IMG/VR virus record: IMGVR_UViG_3300032229_000159
Span: 1-42,679 of that record
Length of the DNA stretch: 42,679 nucleotides
Origin: a virus
Strand: one strand, 5' to 3'
Below the pieces are notes generated by a model that was given only the letters and a program-made list of their open reading frames with translations, did no database searches and was not told where the DNA came from. Of the stretch, positions 25,272-39,349 are shown piece after piece. Positions within the stretch are counted from its first letter, which is position 1, and every line of letters begins with the position of its first letter. The position numbers and the translations under genes were made by a program.

Positions 25272-26048
25272 ATGAGTAACGCAATCGTAGTTCACAATCA
25301 GTCCGTATCGGACATCGAAACAATGGCAAAAGCCATTACCAAATCCGGCTTGTTCGGGATCAAATCTCCAGACCAAGCAGTCGCACTCATGCTCGTCGCT
25401 CAATCCGAAGGACGGCATCCAGCCAGCGTAGCAAGCGAGTTCGACATTATTCAAGGTCGTCCTGCACTCAAGTCACAAGCTGCACTCGCTCGCTTTCAAG
25501 CAGCAGGCGGCAAGATTCAGTGGACAAGCCGAGGGCCGAGCAAATGCTCTGCAAAGTTCTCTCACGCTCAAGGTGGCGAGCTTGAGATCACTTGGACAAT
25601 GGAACGCGCCAATGCTGCCGGACTTACTGGCAAGGCAACATGGCGGCAGTATCCAGACCAAATGCTTTCTGCTCGCGTTGTTGCTGAAGGTGTCCGCGCA
25701 GTATTTCCTGCCTGCCTCAATGGAGTCTACCTTGCTGAAGAGGTGCAGGATTTCGATACCAAGCCCGTTAGGACATCAGCACCGAGCGTCATAAAAGAAG
25801 CAACTCCAATTGCCGTTGAAGTAGTCCAGATTGAAGACGCTCCAGAAATCCCGTGGGACTCTGGAAACTGGTATGACGGCATCAAGGCACAGATTGGCCC
25901 TGTAGCAGATGCTGCAACTCGCTTCCTTGCTGCCAAGGGACAACTCACGGAAGGTCAATCATGGACTGACCTCGGCGAAGGCGCATATCGCCAACGCATC
26001 CTTGAGGCAACTGATAAATTTATTTTAGCACTTGAGGCATTCAAATGA
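25272..26048 (+). CDS. RecT-like single-strand annealing protein
   Basis: 258 residues. The block KSQAALARFQAAGGKIQW, then AKFSHAQGGELEITWTMERA, AGLTGKATWRQYPDQMLSAR and VVAEGVRAVFPACLNGVYLAEEVQDF in succession (residues about 68-165) is the conserved core found in phage RecT-type recombinases. The C-terminal 90 residues are less conserved and may bind partners. The next gene overlaps by ATGA and is a Cas4/RecB-like nuclease, the usual partner that resects ends for annealing. Leader AATAAATACAT-ATG, no SD. Confidence 0.7.
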   Translation: MSNAIVVHNQSVSDIETMAKAITKSGLFGIKSPDQAVALMLVAQSEGRHPASVASEFDIIQGRPALKSQAALARFQAAGGKIQWTSRGPSKCSAKFSHAQGGELEITWTMERANAAGLTGKATWRQYPDQMLSARVVAEGVRAVFPACLNGVYLAEEVQDFDTKPVRTSAPSVIKEATPIAVEVVQIEDAPEIPWDSGNWYDGIKAQIGPVADAATRFLAAKGQLTEGQSWTDLGEGAYRQRILEATDKFILALEAFK

Positions 26049-27052
26049 TCCGTCACTCATCGCTACCAAAGTTAGAACAGTGCGCCTGCTATGAATCCGC
26101 TGGAGGCGACTCTCCAGCGGCAGCAAGAGGCACTCGGATGGACGAGGCATTCCGCTTTGCATTGTCTGGAGACGCAAGCAAACTTGACGCTCTGGAGCAT
26201 GACGAAAAGATGGCAGTCGATTGGGCAGTCAACCAAGTGCGTTTAATTGCTGGCGGTGAAACTATCATCTCAGACGAATCTGCGCTCAAAGTTCAAACAC
26301 CGGGGCTTGAGCATATCGGCACGGAGGATTCCCGCATTCCATCAAAATGCACAAGCCTTGACCTGAAGTCAGGAATTCGGAGGGATTATTATTCGCAGAT
26401 AGCGGCATACGCATATGGCAACATGGAACGCGACTTTGCTCCGGGGTGGACTTGTCACCTGTTGTTCTGCGACCAGAAACAAATAGTCACGCACCACTTC
26501 ACTTACGAGCAAGCGAAAATGGTTGTTGAAAACATTCTGGAGGCAGTTGCCGATCCAGAGAAAAAACCAACTCCTTGCGAGTATTGTAACTGGTGTAAAA
26601 ATAAAGAAGAGTGCCTTCCACTTGGCAAGGCGGCATCCGATACACTTGAGATTGTTGATAGCGATTTAAACGCCAACCTCGCGCAACTGAAGAAGTATCT
26701 GGCAGACTCGCCAGAAACGCTCGCGGCATTTATTACAAAGGCAGCAATCTTTAATGATGAGTTGGTAGATTGGGCAAGGGAACTGGCAAAGGAAAAACTT
26801 TTCGATGGCGAGGAAATCCCCGGTTACAAGTTACAGAAAGTCAAAGGAACGGATTACATCGATCCAACGCAGGTTGCTAAAGCATTGTCAACATCTGGAG
26901 CGACAATGCAAGAAGTTGTTAAGTTCCTCGGAGATAAAGTAAAAGCATTAGATATGCGAGATTTTCTTGATAATCGTCAATGCGATTTTCAATTTGATGT
27001 TATTCAAGGAAAGGGATATACTAAATTAACTACAGACAGAAAAAAGAAGTAA
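26045..27052 (+). CDS. Cas4/RecB-like PD-(D/E)XK exonuclease
   Basis: 335 residues. Motifs: S-S-L-P-K-L-E-Q-C near the N-terminus, GTRMDEAFR (about 29-37), GTED with D95, LDLKSG (D106, K108), and QIAAYAYG (Q118, Y122), the standard order for the RecB/Cas4 nuclease fold. Cys C178, C181, C184 and C190, perhaps with C13 or C15, form a likely Fe-S cluster. Only ten residues separate the two acidic motifs, shorter than common. It would make single strands for the RecT-like protein encoded just upstream, with which it overlaps by four bases. Confidence 0.8.
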   Translation: MIRHSSLPKLEQCACYESAGGDSPAAARGTRMDEAFRFALSGDASKLDALEHDEKMAVDWAVNQVRLIAGGETIISDESALKVQTPGLEHIGTEDSRIPSKCTSLDLKSGIRRDYYSQIAAYAYGNMERDFAPGWTCHLLFCDQKQIVTHHFTYEQAKMVVENILEAVADPEKKPTPCEYCNWCKNKEECLPLGKAASDTLEIVDSDLNANLAQLKKYLADSPETLAAFITKAAIFNDELVDWARELAKEKLFDGEEIPGYKLQKVKGTDYIDPTQVAKALSTSGATMQEVVKFLGDKVKALDMRDFLDNRQCDFQFDVIQGKGYTKLTTDRKKK

Positions 27053-27077
27053 AACAAATAAATAAATACATAAATAC

Positions 27078-27371
27078 ATGAATATCAGACAACGAAACAA
27101 ATGGCTTGATGGTTTTAATCTCCGCATTAAAACTCAAGATGAATGGATCGAAGACATTATGAAAGTTCCAGCATATGCTCGCGCATTGGTTGCTCGCATT
27201 ATCTGGTGGGATTATGCCAGTGAGCGGCTATCAAAAGATAAGTGGGAGCAGTTTGACCAGTTCCTCGTTCCTCCATACGACGAAGTCTCACCTCGCGCAT
27301 TGATCAACGGATTGATAATTTGCGGATACACTAAAGACCGCGCAAACACTCGCGTAAGGAGGGCAGCATGA
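27078..27371 (+). CDS. Small protein, unknown
   Basis: 97 residues, Trp/Arg-rich (MNIRQRNKWLDGFNLRIKTQ, ARALVARIIWWDYASERL) and helical; C-terminus RANTRVRRAA is basic. The start follows AAATAAATAAATACATAAATAC with no SD. The next gene starts within its last codons. Likely a replication-cluster accessory protein; not recognised. Confidence 0.5.
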   Translation: MNIRQRNKWLDGFNLRIKTQDEWIEDIMKVPAYARALVARIIWWDYASERLSKDKWEQFDQFLVPPYDEVSPRALINGLIICGYTKDRANTRVRRAA

Positions 27372-27670
27372 TGGGCGGTTACAATCTCAAGGAAGCTGGA
27401 TGCGCCAAGGTCATTGACAACACTCCAGAGGATTGGAAGGAAGCAACACTTGCGATTATAAAAGCAATGGCATCCAGCGGTATGAAATTTCATGCTGAAG
27501 ATGTCCGCAAGCTCGCTGGTGATCCGCCTAATCATCCAAACGCTTTTGGCGCGATGTTCAATGCAGCGGTTAAAATGAAACTGATCGTCCGTGTTGGTGA
27601 TATTATGGCTACACGCGACAACGCTCACGCTCGGAGAATATCGCTTTACAAAGGCGCACGATACGCTTAA
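27368..27670 (+). CDS. Small winged-helix-like phage protein
   Basis: 100 residues. The pattern FHAEDVRKLAGDPPNHPNAFG, then AMFNAAVKMKLIVRVGDIMA and HARRISLYKG is a common phage module near replication genes: helix, PPHPNAWG-like turn, helix, wing, HAR. It suggests a DNA-binding winged helix. Start is ATG 27368 or 27371 (ATGATG), overlapping the previous stop. Confidence 0.55.
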   Translation: MMGGYNLKEAGCAKVIDNTPEDWKEATLAIIKAMASSGMKFHAEDVRKLAGDPPNHPNAFGAMFNAAVKMKLIVRVGDIMATRDNAHARRISLYKGARYA

Positions 27671-27679
27671 TGTAGTGCT

Positions 27680-27793
27680 GCCTCGTTTGAGGCCGATGTT
27701 TGATACCATCGAAAAACACTAAAACAAATTTGGCCTGCCTCATGCCCATGGGTTTCCTTGTGGGAGTATCACTTGAGGCGGGCCTTTCTTTTA
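27680..27793 (+). terminator. Attenuator-like leader with terminator hairpin
   Basis: GCCTC (27680-27684) pairs with GAGGC (27689-27693). Further on, GGCCTGCCTCA (27732-27742) pairs with TGAGGCGGGCC (27774-27784), an 11-pair stem with one G-U pair, followed by TTTCTTTTA. TGAGGC (27688-27693) could instead pair with GCCTCA (27737-27742), so the hairpins are mutually exclusive. This fits regulated termination before the replication genes. The loop is 31 bases and holds CCCATGGG. Confidence 0.5.
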
Positions 27794-27797
27794 GATT

Positions 27798-28520
27798 ATG
27801 AAAATTAAACGACCAGCATTCCAGTTCTACCCCGCAGACTATTTAGGTTCGCAGAGGGTGGCATTGATGACACTTGAAGAAGAAGGCGCATACTTGAGAT
27901 TGCTTTGCTATTGTTGGCAGCATGGAAGCATACCTTCCAATCCAGAACAAATCGCACGATTGATCGGTAAGTGTGCTTCAACCACCCTTGCAACCAATGT
28001 TGCAACCATGTTCCAACCACACCCAGAAAATGGTTCGTTGTTGGTTCACGAAAGACTCCAACAGGAAATCGTCAAGCAAAATGAATGGGCAAGGAAAAGT
28101 GCTGAAGGTGGTAAAAAGTCTGCTGAAATGAGGAAGAATCTCAAGGGTGGTTCAACCACACTTGCAAGGGTGGTTGAAGAATGCTTGCCAAATGGTATCA
28201 ACCAAAACGCAACACTTCTTCTTCAGTCTTCTTCTTCTTCTACATCTTCTACTACTACAGAAAAGAAAACTACTACAGCAATCCAACCATTCACAGTCGA
28301 TGATCAGGTCTGGAATGACTTCCTCGCAGTTCGCAAAGCTAAACGCGCACCGCTGACAGAAACAGCACTTGCCATGATCGAAAAAGAATCTGAACTTGCA
28401 GGCTTGACACTCAATGACGCTCTGACAGAATGCGTCACCCGTGGATGGCAATCATTCAAAGCTGACTGGATCAAACCAAAGCAGCAACAAGTTGAGATGA
28501 CATACTCACGGGCTTGCTAA
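27798..28520 (+). CDS. DUF1376-type replication protein
   Basis: 240 residues. N-terminal domain RPAFQFYPADYLGSQRVALM, then TLEEEGAYLRLLCYCWQHGSIP and an IARLIG helix (residues about 1-60) is the DUF1376/YdaU fold common in phage replication proteins. A Ser/Thr-rich linker (SSSSSTSSTTT) separates it from a C-terminal domain (VWNDFLAVRKAKRAPLTETA, GWQSFKADWI) like DnaT/helicase-loader ends. The coding sequence contains a cluster of CAACCAC iterons and a large palindrome, as phage origins inside initiator genes do. A DnaB-type helicase lies 1.5 kb downstream, the likely partner. Confidence 0.7.
   Translation: MKIKRPAFQFYPADYLGSQRVALMTLEEEGAYLRLLCYCWQHGSIPSNPEQIARLIGKCASTTLATNVATMFQPHPENGSLLVHERLQQEIVKQNEWARKSAEGGKKSAEMRKNLKGGSTTLARVVEECLPNGINQNATLLLQSSSSSTSSTTTEKKTTTAIQPFTVDDQVWNDFLAVRKAKRAPLTETALAMIEKESELAGLTLNDALTECVTRGWQSFKADWIKPKQQQVEMTYSRAC
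27976..28179 (+). repeat. Iteron/palindrome array, candidate replication origin
   Basis: CAACCA occurs at 27979, 27991, 28003 and 28014, that is every 11-12 bases, about one helical turn. CTTCAACCACCCTTGCAA (27976-27993) reappears as its exact reverse complement at 28162-28179 and as a 16/17 direct match at 28151-28167. Together 28151-28178 form a 28-base palindrome with one mismatched pair. CAAGGGTGGTT is repeated at 28142 and 28165. All lie in the DUF1376 gene. Confidence 0.55.
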
Positions 28521-28522
28521 AA

Positions 28523-29431
28523 ATGAAAAAGCACTTAGATTTGTTTTCTGGCATTGGTGGATTTGCATTAGGGTTAGATCGCGTTTGTGAATTTCAACAC
28601 ACATTTGTTGAATATGAGCCGCATCTAAAAAGGGTGCTGAATAAAAATTTTCCGTCATCGAAAGTTTATGGAGACATAACAGAATTTACACCTGACTTTC
28701 AGCCTTGGGTAATAACTGGTGGATTTCCATGTCAGGACATATCCAGAGCAAATACAAACAAAAACAAAGGAGGAATAAATGGAAACAGAAGCGGATTATG
28801 GAAACACTACCTTAGAATTATTCGGGAATCTTCACCTAAATACGTCATCATCGAAAATGTGTATGATCTCTTGTCAAACGGGCTTGGAATCGTTGTGCAA
28901 GACTTGGCCGAAAGCGGGTATGATTCGACTTGGACGATCATCGACTCTAAATTCTGCGGAGTTCCACAAAGAAGACGTAGAGTTTACATACTGGGATTCC
29001 GTGATGGAATCACCAGAGGAACCGATCCACTCAACAATACAAAGCGTTCTTCTTACGAATTACGATCCAAAGTTAAAGATATCGAAAAAATCAGCAATTG
29101 GTATTTTGAGGAGAGCATGGGAACGGAACATCCCATTGCCTACTTTACTCGCCAACGCTCTGATGAATATGCTGAGTGCGGATTGTCTGGAACTATTGCA
29201 AAAAGAGATTACAAAAGTTTCACAGACATTGTGTTGCACGGAGATGGAAAGTTGCGACGAGTTGGGGTTGTGGAAAGATTAAGGTTACAAGGAATTCCAG
29301 ATAATTGGTTGGATGACTGCAATCTTTCAGAAGTTCAAAAATATCAAGCAAATGGAATGACAGTTCCAGCAGTTTCTTGGGTGGCAAAACAACTTATTTC
29401 TTATGATGAAAGACTGGACATTCAAAAATAA
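28523..29431 (+). CDS. Cytosine-5 DNA methyltransferase
   Basis: 302 residues from ATG 28523, two bases after the previous stop; a TTG at 28514 is less likely. Motif I LDLFSGIGGF (5-14) binds SAM, motif IV PCQ with catalytic C70, motif VI ENV (111-113), motif VIII QRRRR (149-153), motif X with QANGM-x-VP (275 on). The target-recognition part (about 165-240) contains FTRQRSDEYAECG. It would put 5-methylcytosine in phage DNA, probably to evade host restriction. No cognate restriction enzyme is seen. The gene is AT-rich compared with the helicase gene downstream and fully contains a second gene in another frame (28779-29282). Confidence 0.92.
   Translation: MKKHLDLFSGIGGFALGLDRVCEFQHTFVEYEPHLKRVLNKNFPSSKVYGDITEFTPDFQPWVITGGFPCQDISRANTNKNKGGINGNRSGLWKHYLRIIRESSPKYVIIENVYDLLSNGLGIVVQDLAESGYDSTWTIIDSKFCGVPQRRRRVYILGFRDGITRGTDPLNNTKRSSYELRSKVKDIEKISNWYFEESMGTEHPIAYFTRQRSDEYAECGLSGTIAKRDYKSFTDIVLHGDGKLRRVGVVERLRLQGIPDNWLDDCNLSEVQKYQANGMTVPAVSWVAKQLISYDERLDIQK
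28768..28773 (+). promoter_or_regulatory. Strong Shine-Dalgarno inside the methyltransferase gene
   Basis: AAAGGAGG precedes the ATG at 28779, with AATAA between. Most starts in this window have no such site, so it is a notable signal for the nested gene. The same bases code Lys-Gly-Gly of a conserved methyltransferase loop, so some of the match may be coincidence. Confidence 0.55.
28779..29282 (+). CDS. Phage protein nested in the methyltransferase gene (GILRRAxxR family)
   Basis: 167 residues in the +1 frame within the methyltransferase gene. KTWPKAGMIRLG (41-52) and then ESPEEP, a short Ser/Leu helix, YDPKLKISKKSAIGILRRAW (95-114) and ERNIPLPTLLANAL match the layout of a small phage protein often found beside cytosine methyltransferases (usually SGM-x2-G, then LSAKACAGILRRAEKRGK and LP-x2-L-x2-AL). 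An AAAGGAGG site precedes the ATG. Both frames thus look conserved, a true double-coding stretch of 504 bases. Function unknown, perhaps helping the methyltransferase. Confidence 0.65.
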   Translation: METEADYGNTTLELFGNLHLNTSSSKMCMISCQTGLESLCKTWPKAGMIRLGRSSTLNSAEFHKEDVEFTYWDSVMESPEEPIHSTIQSVLLTNYDPKLKISKKSAIGILRRAWERNIPLPTLLANALMNMLSADCLELLQKEITKVSQTLCCTEMESCDELGLWKD

Positions 29432-30050
29432 TTGGATAGCAGAAAACTTTGACAACCATGTGCGTGAGCAGTTGCCTTGGTATGATTTAGCGACAAGTGC
29501 TGTGGTTTCCATAACAAGGAACTATCTTTCCAATAATGGAATAATCTACGATATTGGAGCAAGCACTGGAAACATAGGAAGGTCTGCTAAATCTTTGATA
29601 GAACAAAGAAACGCAAATCTAATATCTATAGAGGAAAGCGAAGAAATGGCACAAAAGTATAATGGTGGAGGAACGCTTGAAATTTCAGATGCCGTGGATT
29701 TTGAATATCAAGAATTTTCCGTGGCAGTTTGCTTTCTTTCTTTAATGTTTATGTCAAAAAAAAGAAGGTCAAAACTTCTGCAAAAATTAATGGCATCCAC
29801 AGAATATGGAGGATGTATTATTTTAGTAGAAAAATTTGAATCAGTTCACGGATACGCATCAACAATATTCCGAAGAATGACATCAGAATGGAAATTGAAA
29901 TGCGGAGCATCTCCATCTGATATTTTGGATAAAGAACTTTCATTAAGCGGAGTTCAGCGTCCACTTGATCAATCCGAGGTTGATGGAGGAATTGAATTCT
30001 TCCGAATCGGAGAATTCGCAGGATACATAATTGAAAAACACAATACATGA
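29403..30050 (+). CDS. SAM-dependent methyltransferase (CmoA-like class I)
   Basis: 215 residues. Motif I IIYDIGASTGNIGRS (about 47-61), an acidic end of strand two (LISIEESEEMA), SDAVDF, and a long substrate region with SSXF-type fragments make a class I Rossmann methyltransferase, closest in layout to CmoA/UbiE-like phage enzymes. Substrate unknown (tRNA, small molecule or DNA precursor). It overlaps the cytosine methyltransferase by 29 bases and the helicase by four. Very AT-rich: 17 G/C in the 60 bases 29701-29760. Confidence 0.7.
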   Translation: MMKDWTFKNNWIAENFDNHVREQLPWYDLATSAVVSITRNYLSNNGIIYDIGASTGNIGRSAKSLIEQRNANLISIEESEEMAQKYNGGGTLEISDAVDFEYQEFSVAVCFLSLMFMSKKRRSKLLQKLMASTEYGGCIILVEKFESVHGYASTIFRRMTSEWKLKCGASPSDILDKELSLSGVQRPLDQSEVDGGIEFFRIGEFAGYIIEKHNT

Positions 30051-31339
30051 AATCACTACCTATCGCTATTACCGCAGAGAAGGCGGCACTATCACTAATC
30101 GCAATCGATCCAGAGGTTCTACCGCACCTCGCATGGAACGCTGATCTTTTCGCTCTGGAACAGCACAAACTGATCTTCAAGGCACTCGAAAGGGTTTACC
30201 AGCGGACAGGCAGCACAAACGCATTGGGAGCTATCTCTGACCTTGAAACCACTGGAAAGCTAAATGCCGCTGGAGGAAAGGAAGGAGTCATCGAAGTTCT
30301 CAAGACAATCTTACTCGCTCCGGGAGCTATGTGCGTCGAGACGGCAGCGGACTACCGCTCGCAACTTCTCAAGGCAAAAGGATACCGAGATGCCATCAAG
30401 ACATGGGAGGAAGCGCATGACGATGTTTGCGCGATGCGTGCAGACCTGCCAGCAATCGCTGATGCACTGGCTAATGCCATCCAACCAGAAACCAACTCAA
30501 AGAGCGTGAAGGAGCATTTAAGCGATTTCCTTGACGATCTGGAGAACAAGTCACCGCTCGAAAACTTCGCCACTGGAATTCCGAAGGTTGACAAATACCT
30601 CGGAGGTGGAATGCGCCGAGGTGAGATGCTCGTTATCGGAGCGCAGACCAGCGGAGGAAAGTCAATCCTGCTTTACCAAGCTGCACTCAACGCGCTGCTG
30701 GAGGGAAAATCGGTAACGATATTCAGCCTCGAAATGCCAGCGAAATCTATCCTGCAACGAATGGCGTGTAATCTGATCGGCAAGACAATCGTGCCAATGC
30801 GAGAGATTGATGCAGTCAGTGACTGGAAGACAGTTGCCAGTGCGAAGGACATATCCAATGCAATCGGACAATTGATGCAAATGAACCTCACGATCCGCGA
30901 TGATCTGTCAGAGGTCGGCGAGATAATCGCTGAAGCAAACAGGCTCGCGTCACTTGGCAAGGCAGATGTAATTGTGGTCGATTACCTACAAATTGTAACG
31001 ATGCCGAACGCCGACAACAGGGAGCAGGCAGTGAGTGAACTATCACGCAGACTCAAGTTGACAGCACTCAAGGCAAACTCCGTGGTGCTGACAGCATCGC
31101 AACTCAACGACGATGGAGCGGTGCGGGAGTCACGCGCAATCGGGCATCATACAGACTTCCTGCTCATCATCTCGCATCCTGACGATAAAAAGAAAGAGAC
31201 TTCTGGCTACCGCAAGACAGCACCAGCACAACCGACATCACGCATCCGCATAGACAAGAATCGCCGAGGTCAACGAGACGTGTTCGTCCCAGTCAAAATG
31301 CGCGGAGAAATTTCACGCTTTGAGGAGATACATGAATAA
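30047..31339 (+). CDS. dnaB: DnaB-type replicative helicase
   Basis: 430 residues. An N-terminal DnaB-like helical domain (residues 1-150: EKAALSLIAIDPEVLPHL, IFKALERVYQRTGST) precedes the RecA-like motor: Walker A GAQTSGGKS (198-206), FSLEMP, Walker B VVDYLQI (310-316), the SQLNDDGAVRESRAIGHHTD stretch and KNRRGQRD (404-411) as the arginine-finger motif. It would unwind phage DNA, loaded probably by the DUF1376 protein. The start overlaps the previous stop (ATGA), and the following gene overlaps the end by eight bases. Confidence 0.93.
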   Translation: MKSLPIAITAEKAALSLIAIDPEVLPHLAWNADLFALEQHKLIFKALERVYQRTGSTNALGAISDLETTGKLNAAGGKEGVIEVLKTILLAPGAMCVETAADYRSQLLKAKGYRDAIKTWEEAHDDVCAMRADLPAIADALANAIQPETNSKSVKEHLSDFLDDLENKSPLENFATGIPKVDKYLGGGMRRGEMLVIGAQTSGGKSILLYQAALNALLEGKSVTIFSLEMPAKSILQRMACNLIGKTIVPMREIDAVSDWKTVASAKDISNAIGQLMQMNLTIRDDLSEVGEIIAEANRLASLGKADVIVVDYLQIVTMPNADNREQAVSELSRRLKLTALKANSVVLTASQLNDDGAVRESRAIGHHTDFLLIISHPDDKKKETSGYRKTAPAQPTSRIRIDKNRRGQRDVFVPVKMRGEISRFEEIHE

Positions 31340-38959: not shown

Positions 38960-39349
38960 ATGAAAACGAGTTTTTGGGATCATAGCGGGAAACCATCTGT
39001 TTTTGTTGTGAAAGAAAATGGCAAAGAAATTCATCGAGGCGGATTTGAGGAAGGATATAAACTTATCAATATGAGCATAGAACAAGACATCACAAGATTG
39101 ACGCAGGAATGGTATGCATTGATGGGCGAAGATCATCATAAAGATCGTGACTGCCATTGGTATATTGAAACCAAGTGGAGTTATGGTCAACTTCCAACAT
39201 ACTGCGTGATTCATCATGGTTATGTTTATGATCGCATCGAGGAAAACTGGAGCAGTTATGAAGGCGCATTGAATAGGTTGCGCGAAATTCTTATTGAGGC
39301 TATTAAAGAGATTAATGAGTTCAGAGACAACGACCCAGACTGGAGGTAA
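38960..39349 (+). CDS. Small protein, unknown
   Basis: 129 residues from ATG 38960; an in-frame upstream start at 38876 would overlap deeply and is less likely. Contains KTSFWDHSGKPSVFVV, CVIHHGYVYDRIEENWSSYE and a helical end. Balanced composition. Not recognised. Confidence 0.5.
   Translation: MKTSFWDHSGKPSVFVVKENGKEIHRGGFEEGYKLINMSIEQDITRLTQEWYALMGEDHHKDRDCHWYIETKWSYGQLPTYCVIHHGYVYDRIEENWSSYEGALNRLREILIEAIKEINEFRDNDPDWR

Follow-up and report, generated by a model that had tools for sequence, protein, structure and literature searches.

An origin of replication located inside the gene for its own initiator is an arrangement that is already known. In phage lambda, the O protein has an N-terminal part that binds the origin and a C-terminal part that recruits the helicase, and the iterons occupy the central part of the O gene beside an A+T-rich tract; this organization of O and ori-lambda has been described (PMC7466680). 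Four iterons are annotated inside O, at 39034-39118. In staphylococcal plasmids, the winged-helix N-domain of the pSK41-type RepA_N initiator binds Rep boxes within the rep gene, and in the natural chimera pPR9 about 500 bp comprising the N-domain and the origin have been exchanged, with the C-domain kept (PMC5703833). The Rac prophage of E. coli has an active origin, oriJ (PMC3945230).

We analyzed a phage record of 42,679 bases (the window) in which short repeats lie within a gene whose product joins a DUF1376 N-domain to an O-like C-terminal domain. From the sequence comparisons described below, we consider it quite probable that these repeats are the iterons of a replication origin embedded in the phage's own DUF1376 initiator gene. 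The locus has in common with lambda O the intragenic repeats, an A+T-rich tract (ranking in the bottom 3% of the window for stability) and the O-like C-terminal domain. It differs in that the N-domain is DUF1376 rather than Phage_rep_O (PF04492), the sites are 12 bp rather than 18 bp long, the sites form two clusters more than 100 bp apart, one of them within the code for the N-domain itself, and a DnaB-like helicase gene is found downstream rather than a P-type loader. With the staphylococcal RepA_N initiators (pSK41 Rep and the chimeric pPR9 Rep) it shares repeats in the initiator gene and an exchangeable block of N-domain and repeats; those initiators, however, belong to plasmids of Gram-positive bacteria, and the Pfam scan reported no RepA_N domain (PF06970) in the window's protein.

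YdaU, from the Rac prophage of E. coli, belongs to the same Pfam family (PF07120) as the window's N-domain, but the repeat word in its gene differs from that of the window. TGTTCAA/TGTTGAA or their complements occur six times in ydaU, compared to at most five in 2000 shuffles, for a word that was chosen after looking, and four of the six are in the linker. The word-free repeat test was not significant for ydaU, and as an origin signal its repeats are no more than suggestive. When ydaU is compared with other E. coli genomes, the matching DNA ends immediately past the repeats, a pattern also seen in the window's cassette exchange. In a search covering the open literature and few subscription journals, we found no paper that maps oriJ to ydaU or calls DUF1376 an origin binder.

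The initiator gene and its repeats

The initiator matched PF07120 (DUF1376) with E=1.3e-8 and 35.5 bits, compared to a gathering cut-off of 30.1, and its C-terminal residues 103-231 matched phrog_678, 'replication initiation O-like' (E=2.9e-20). The Pfam scan reported DUF1376 alone: PF04492 was not found in the N-domain by a search that, run identically, detected it in lambda O. No NCBIfam family matched the initiator. By its N-domain, the protein is outside the lambda O and RepA_N families.

Structure prediction suggests a winged-helix fold for the N-domain; the model had pLDDT values mostly of 80-90, with helices at residues 26-42, 49-56 and 62-69 and a strand at 81-83. Compared to solved structures, the model gave weak matches (Foldseek E ≥ 0.14, Z ≤ 5.4), and these were winged-helix or DnaD/RepA-like. 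The scores against the RepA N-domain (Foldseek E of 0.36 for 4pql and 1.6 for 4pta; VIA-align Z of 4.3 for 4pql) were at noise level, and a profile search of PDB sequences found nothing. Because the matches from the fold searches were weak, the winged-helix assignment rests on prediction.

The DnaB-like helicase encoded 1.5 kb downstream is the likely client of the initiator. Between the two genes are a C5-cytosine DNA methyltransferase gene (28514-29431) and a second methyltransferase gene (29403-30050), with overlapping ends; in one relative (L025), the DNA 3' of the initiator differs from that of the window.

An earlier note, made from the sequence of the window, had reported CAACCA four times at steps of 11-12 bases, and we confirmed these copies at 27979, 27991, 28003 and 28014 (spacings of 12, 12 and 11). 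Further copies begin at 28153, 28199 and 28284, and TGGTTG is found at 28171. The reported 18-mer CTTCAACCACCCTTGCAA (27976-27993) does have an exact inverted copy 186 bases on, at 28162-28179. The reported 28-base palindrome is present as well, with 13 of 14 pairs, but it is not built from the two 18-mers 186 bases apart; its halves are two adjacent copies in the linker-coding part, at 28151-28164 and 28165-28178. Comparison with relatives indicated that the true repeat unit is a 12-bp iteron, CAACCACCCTTG, which occurs four times within one mismatch in the 42.7-kb window, always inside the initiator gene. The iterons form two clusters in the DUF1376 gene, A (27979-28025) and B (28142-28204). 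The tract that follows cluster B (Table 1) is 66% A+T, ranks below 97% of the window's 50-bp stretches in stability, and is the least stable DNA locally.

Table 1. Features of the initiator locus, with putative iterons numbered in order of position.
Feature	Positions	Strand	Remarks
Structured RNA leader, four helices	27676-27790	+	Directly 5' of the initiator ATG
Initiator gene	27798-28520	+	240 aa: DUF1376 N-domain (residues 8-91), linker, O-like-type C-terminal domain
Exchangeable cassette, N-domain and iterons	27798-28221	+	Replaced in L023/L025; reaches 28305 in L035-L040 (blastn)
Iteron 1, CAACCACCCTTG	27979-27990	+	Cluster A; exact 12-mer; frozen synonymous sites
Iteron 2, CAACCAATGTTG	27991-28002	+	Cluster A
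Iteron 3, CAACCATGTTCC	28003-28014	+	Cluster A; hexamer conserved
Iteron 4, CAACCACACCCA	28014-28025	+	Cluster A, other reading frame; missing in part of the relatives
Iteron 5, GAACCACCCTTG	28142-28153	-	Cluster B
28-bp palindrome	28151-28178	.	13/14 pairs; iterons 6 and 7 head to head
Iteron 6, CAACCACACTTG	28153-28164	+	Cluster B
Iteron 7, CAACCACCCTTG	28165-28176	-	Cluster B
CAACCA of degenerate iteron CAACCAAAACGC	28199-28204	+	Another frame; gene offset 401 in most close relatives
Candidate unwinding element	28215-28264	+	A+T- and pyrimidine-rich, encodes poly-Ser linker; directly 3' of cluster B
DnaB-like replicative helicase gene	30047-31339	+	PF03796 E=6e-35; phrog_19

The number of repeats exceeded what the protein and its codon usage produce. 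In 2000 shuffles that preserved both, the combined count of eight for CAACCA and TGGTTG was never reached (mean of 1.9, maximum of 6). Palindromes of 28 bases with 13 pairs arose in 20 of the same shuffles, and exact inverted repeats of 18 nt in 19. A word-free test, using the most frequent 8-mer with the Ser tract omitted, gave 9/200 for the window and 59/200 for lambda O; this test has little power because lambda O was not flagged either. The cumulative GC skew of the genome had no turn near 28 kb, which says little because the genes here run one way.

Conservation and exchange of the repeats

Synonymous sites were compared across the window's group, represented by 20 distinct genes. Relative to expectation, synonymous differences were 0.10 in codons 58-75 (cluster A) and 0.12 in codons 114-139 (cluster B), or about 0.11 for both clusters combined, compared to 1.25 in the rest of the gene. 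There was no synonymous change in 36 of the 43 informative columns in the clusters, compared to 44 of 176 elsewhere. The combined cluster value was reached by none of 100,000 random column sets, although these draws ignore kinship among the sequences and the permutation counts overstate certainty because relatives are not independent. Conservation of the repeats in related phages beyond amino acid need, which the earlier note had proposed as a check, was thus borne out.

The 12-mer was found 206 times in 75 related genes (54.7 kb), compared to twice in 421 kb of flanking DNA. The 206 copies were distributed over two plus-strand frames (99 and 45) and the minus strand (62), and what they encode varies: [A/S]TTL, QPPL or, when inverted, ARVVE (ARVVE in the window). 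For instance, tCAACCACCCTTG is read as STTL in cluster A, and CAACCACCCTTG is read as QPPL in L284, L292 and L295. Because one DNA word is used in several frames and on both strands, a need for particular peptides cannot produce the repeats. Together with the frozen synonymous sites over both clusters, this use of different frames and strands supports the earlier proposal that the repeats go beyond protein coding. No 12-mer was detectable in either cluster of eight distant relatives whose N-domain is of the same type as that of the window.

The earlier note had also held that its proposal would be refuted by loss of the repeats from close relatives in which the protein sequence is kept. Taken literally, such a loss is found in eight relatives without CAACCA clusters, one of which (L270) retains a single CAACCA in the linker, but all of the cluster-A copies in these relatives are CAACTA instead. 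In all eight, CAACTA occupies the same three cluster-A places (gene offsets 172, 184 and 196), and the linker contains an inverted copy of it (offset 352). The change in cluster A is a silent one, ACC to ACT in three threonine codons, and two of the CAACTA genes (L278 and L285) encode the same peptide, GASTTLATTLATMFQ, as the CAACCA relatives L265 and L268. That CAACTA is found in all cluster-A copies at once, with some peptides unchanged, argues for a role at the DNA level and for a shared reader of the sites.

Initiators with other types of N-domain have other words. In type T2 (67 distinct genes), AAGGTT/AACCTT occurred 477 times, compared to a shuffle mean of 164 (maximum of 187), and the T2 word is AAGGTTAACCTT. 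CAACCA was not in excess in T2 (87 vs 103 in shuffles), and AAGGTT was absent from the window's group (0 vs 11 in shuffles). The frozen sites of T2 are AAG GTT, AAG GTT ATC CTT and AAC CTT in the domain and AAG GTT AAC CTT in the linker; the linker sites are followed by a frozen tract of TCA/TCT serine codons that corresponds to the tract at 28215-28264 of the window. In type T3 (69 genes; initiators L162-L240), conservation of this sort is confined to the linker, where an element with GGGGAGGC..AGCCCCCC arms and recurring AACCAA and ACCAATA words is frozen; the N-domain contains no frozen sites. The layout is largely common to the N-domain types, while the word differs.

Two further groups of initiators were of note. 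In the O-like initiators of L035-L040, which have the window's C-domain, a linker element has no synonymous change over ~20 codons, and after it comes an A+T-rich tract in which ATACCTAAT/TACTAATAA words recur; this is likely a third kind of origin within the phage group. Three T2 initiators (L082:3001-3966, L083 and L084) have an in-frame insertion of ~100 residues between the N-domain and the linker repeats. The insertion matches T5orf172/MUG113, which we take to be a GIY-YIG-like nuclease domain, and by this match is a nuclease-like domain within a replication initiator.

Upstream of the initiator, at 27001-27797, the window shares 77-91% identity with L001, L023, L025, L035-L040 and others. 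A T2 N-domain and T2 repeats are present in L023 and L025, where homology to the window begins again at 28221 (87-88%). L035-L040 have an O-like N-part (phrog_678) fused to the window's C-domain, with homology from 28305 on (88-94%). Because the flanks and the C-domain are homologous and the N-domain and repeats are different, the latter two have been exchanged together between close phages. Lambdoid phages likewise exchange the N-domain and the repeats. The same pattern is on record for the plasmid pair pSK41/pPR9 (PMC5703833). The joint change of N-domain and word, the exchange of the cassette and the adjacent unstable tract all support the likeness to lambdoid origins within the initiator gene that had been suggested earlier. 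A RecT-like annealing protein and an exonuclease-like gene (DUF2800) are encoded upstream of the replication genes, at 25272-27052, and a recombination module beside the origin is in line with frequent exchange of the cassette.

An RNA leader upstream of the initiator

The region directly upstream of the initiator is conserved as a structured RNA (Table 1). In an alignment of 11 relatives, 99.7% of the cells were paired and 20 of 29 pairs had changes on both sides. The covariation far exceeded that in shuffles and slid controls, a comparison somewhat favored by the structure having been derived in part from the same alignment. A covariance model placed the leader at the same position upstream of the initiator in 32 relatives, with any N-domain type. 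No Rfam family matched the leader at the gathering score, and we attribute the single sub-threshold match, to sR52 (E 0.47), to chance. The last hairpin resembles a terminator, and its T run directly adjoins the start codon, which makes control of initiator expression the natural guess; the leader is possibly an attenuator or a sensing leader that sets the dose of the initiator.

The proposed origin and alternative explanations

We propose that the DUF1376 N-domain, as a predicted winged helix, would bind the 12-bp CAACCACCCTTG sites in both clusters, that is, the tandem copies of cluster A in the part of the gene that encodes the N-domain and the opposed copies of cluster B (the 28-bp palindrome) in the part that encodes the linker. 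The nucleoprotein complex would open the adjacent A+T- and pyrimidine-rich tract, and the C-terminal domain would bring in a DnaB-type helicase. Binding of the iterons by the DUF1376 domain is strongly suggested because the repeat word co-varies with the N-domain; opening of the tract and loading of the helicase by the C-domain are steps that we infer.

All of the conservation data would fit equally well if the repeats were intragenic operators, through which the DUF1376 protein or another phage regulator controls transcription of the replication operon while replication starts elsewhere, and the opposed pair does resemble an operator for a dimer. Such operators seem unlikely to us, given that the sites swap with the N-domain of a protein that has an O-like initiator C-domain, and that they adjoin an unstable tract. 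Repeats of a similar sort are also known at packaging, partition and recombination sites, and a phage site with one of these functions could lie in the gene by chance. However, the exchange with the initiator N-domain, and a shared layout with different words for each N-domain type, tie the sites to the initiator, and we regard a site with one of these other functions as very improbable.

The 28-bp palindrome, with its 13 of 14 pairs, could in principle form an RNA or cruciform hairpin that serves as an attenuator, a processing site or a recombination site. Among 67 genes with the window's type of N-domain, however, the sites of cluster B have mixed or inverted orientations in 28 and form direct-only sets of at least two in 8, and what is conserved is the 12-mer rather than the hairpin. 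We rejected the hairpin, to which we assign hardly any probability, because the orientation of the sites varies among relatives. The peptide of cluster A is partly repetitive, and one could suppose that the repeats come from coding only, through repetitive peptides (STTLAT, QPPL) or codon bias. This supposition, in our judgment next to impossible, is refuted by the synonymous shuffles, which never reach the repeat count, by the use of the same word in different frames and strands to encode different peptides, and by the concerted silent change of CAACCA to CAACTA.

As the probable binder of an origin inside its own gene, the DUF1376 N-domain is what sets this locus apart from lambda O and the RepA_N initiators. 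DUF1376 is still classed among the domains of unknown function and was mentioned in just five papers of the literature that we searched; sequence-specific origin binding is a putative function that is concrete and can be tested. Site words are now supplied for two N-domain types, along with candidate elements for others, and the change from CAACCA to CAACTA provides a natural specificity switch with which the domain's DNA recognition can be mapped. For metagenomes, a search for frozen synonymous sites in initiator linkers offers a route to phage origins. More tentatively, and with somewhat more doubt than confidence, DUF1376 may be an origin-binding family whose genes carry their own origin, and in the window's N-domain type the iterons would coincide with the codons for residues 62-69, the predicted recognition helix. 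If so, the helix that reads the DNA would be encoded by its own target sites, and a change of the word would have to go silently through the code for this helix, as in the CAACTA clade.
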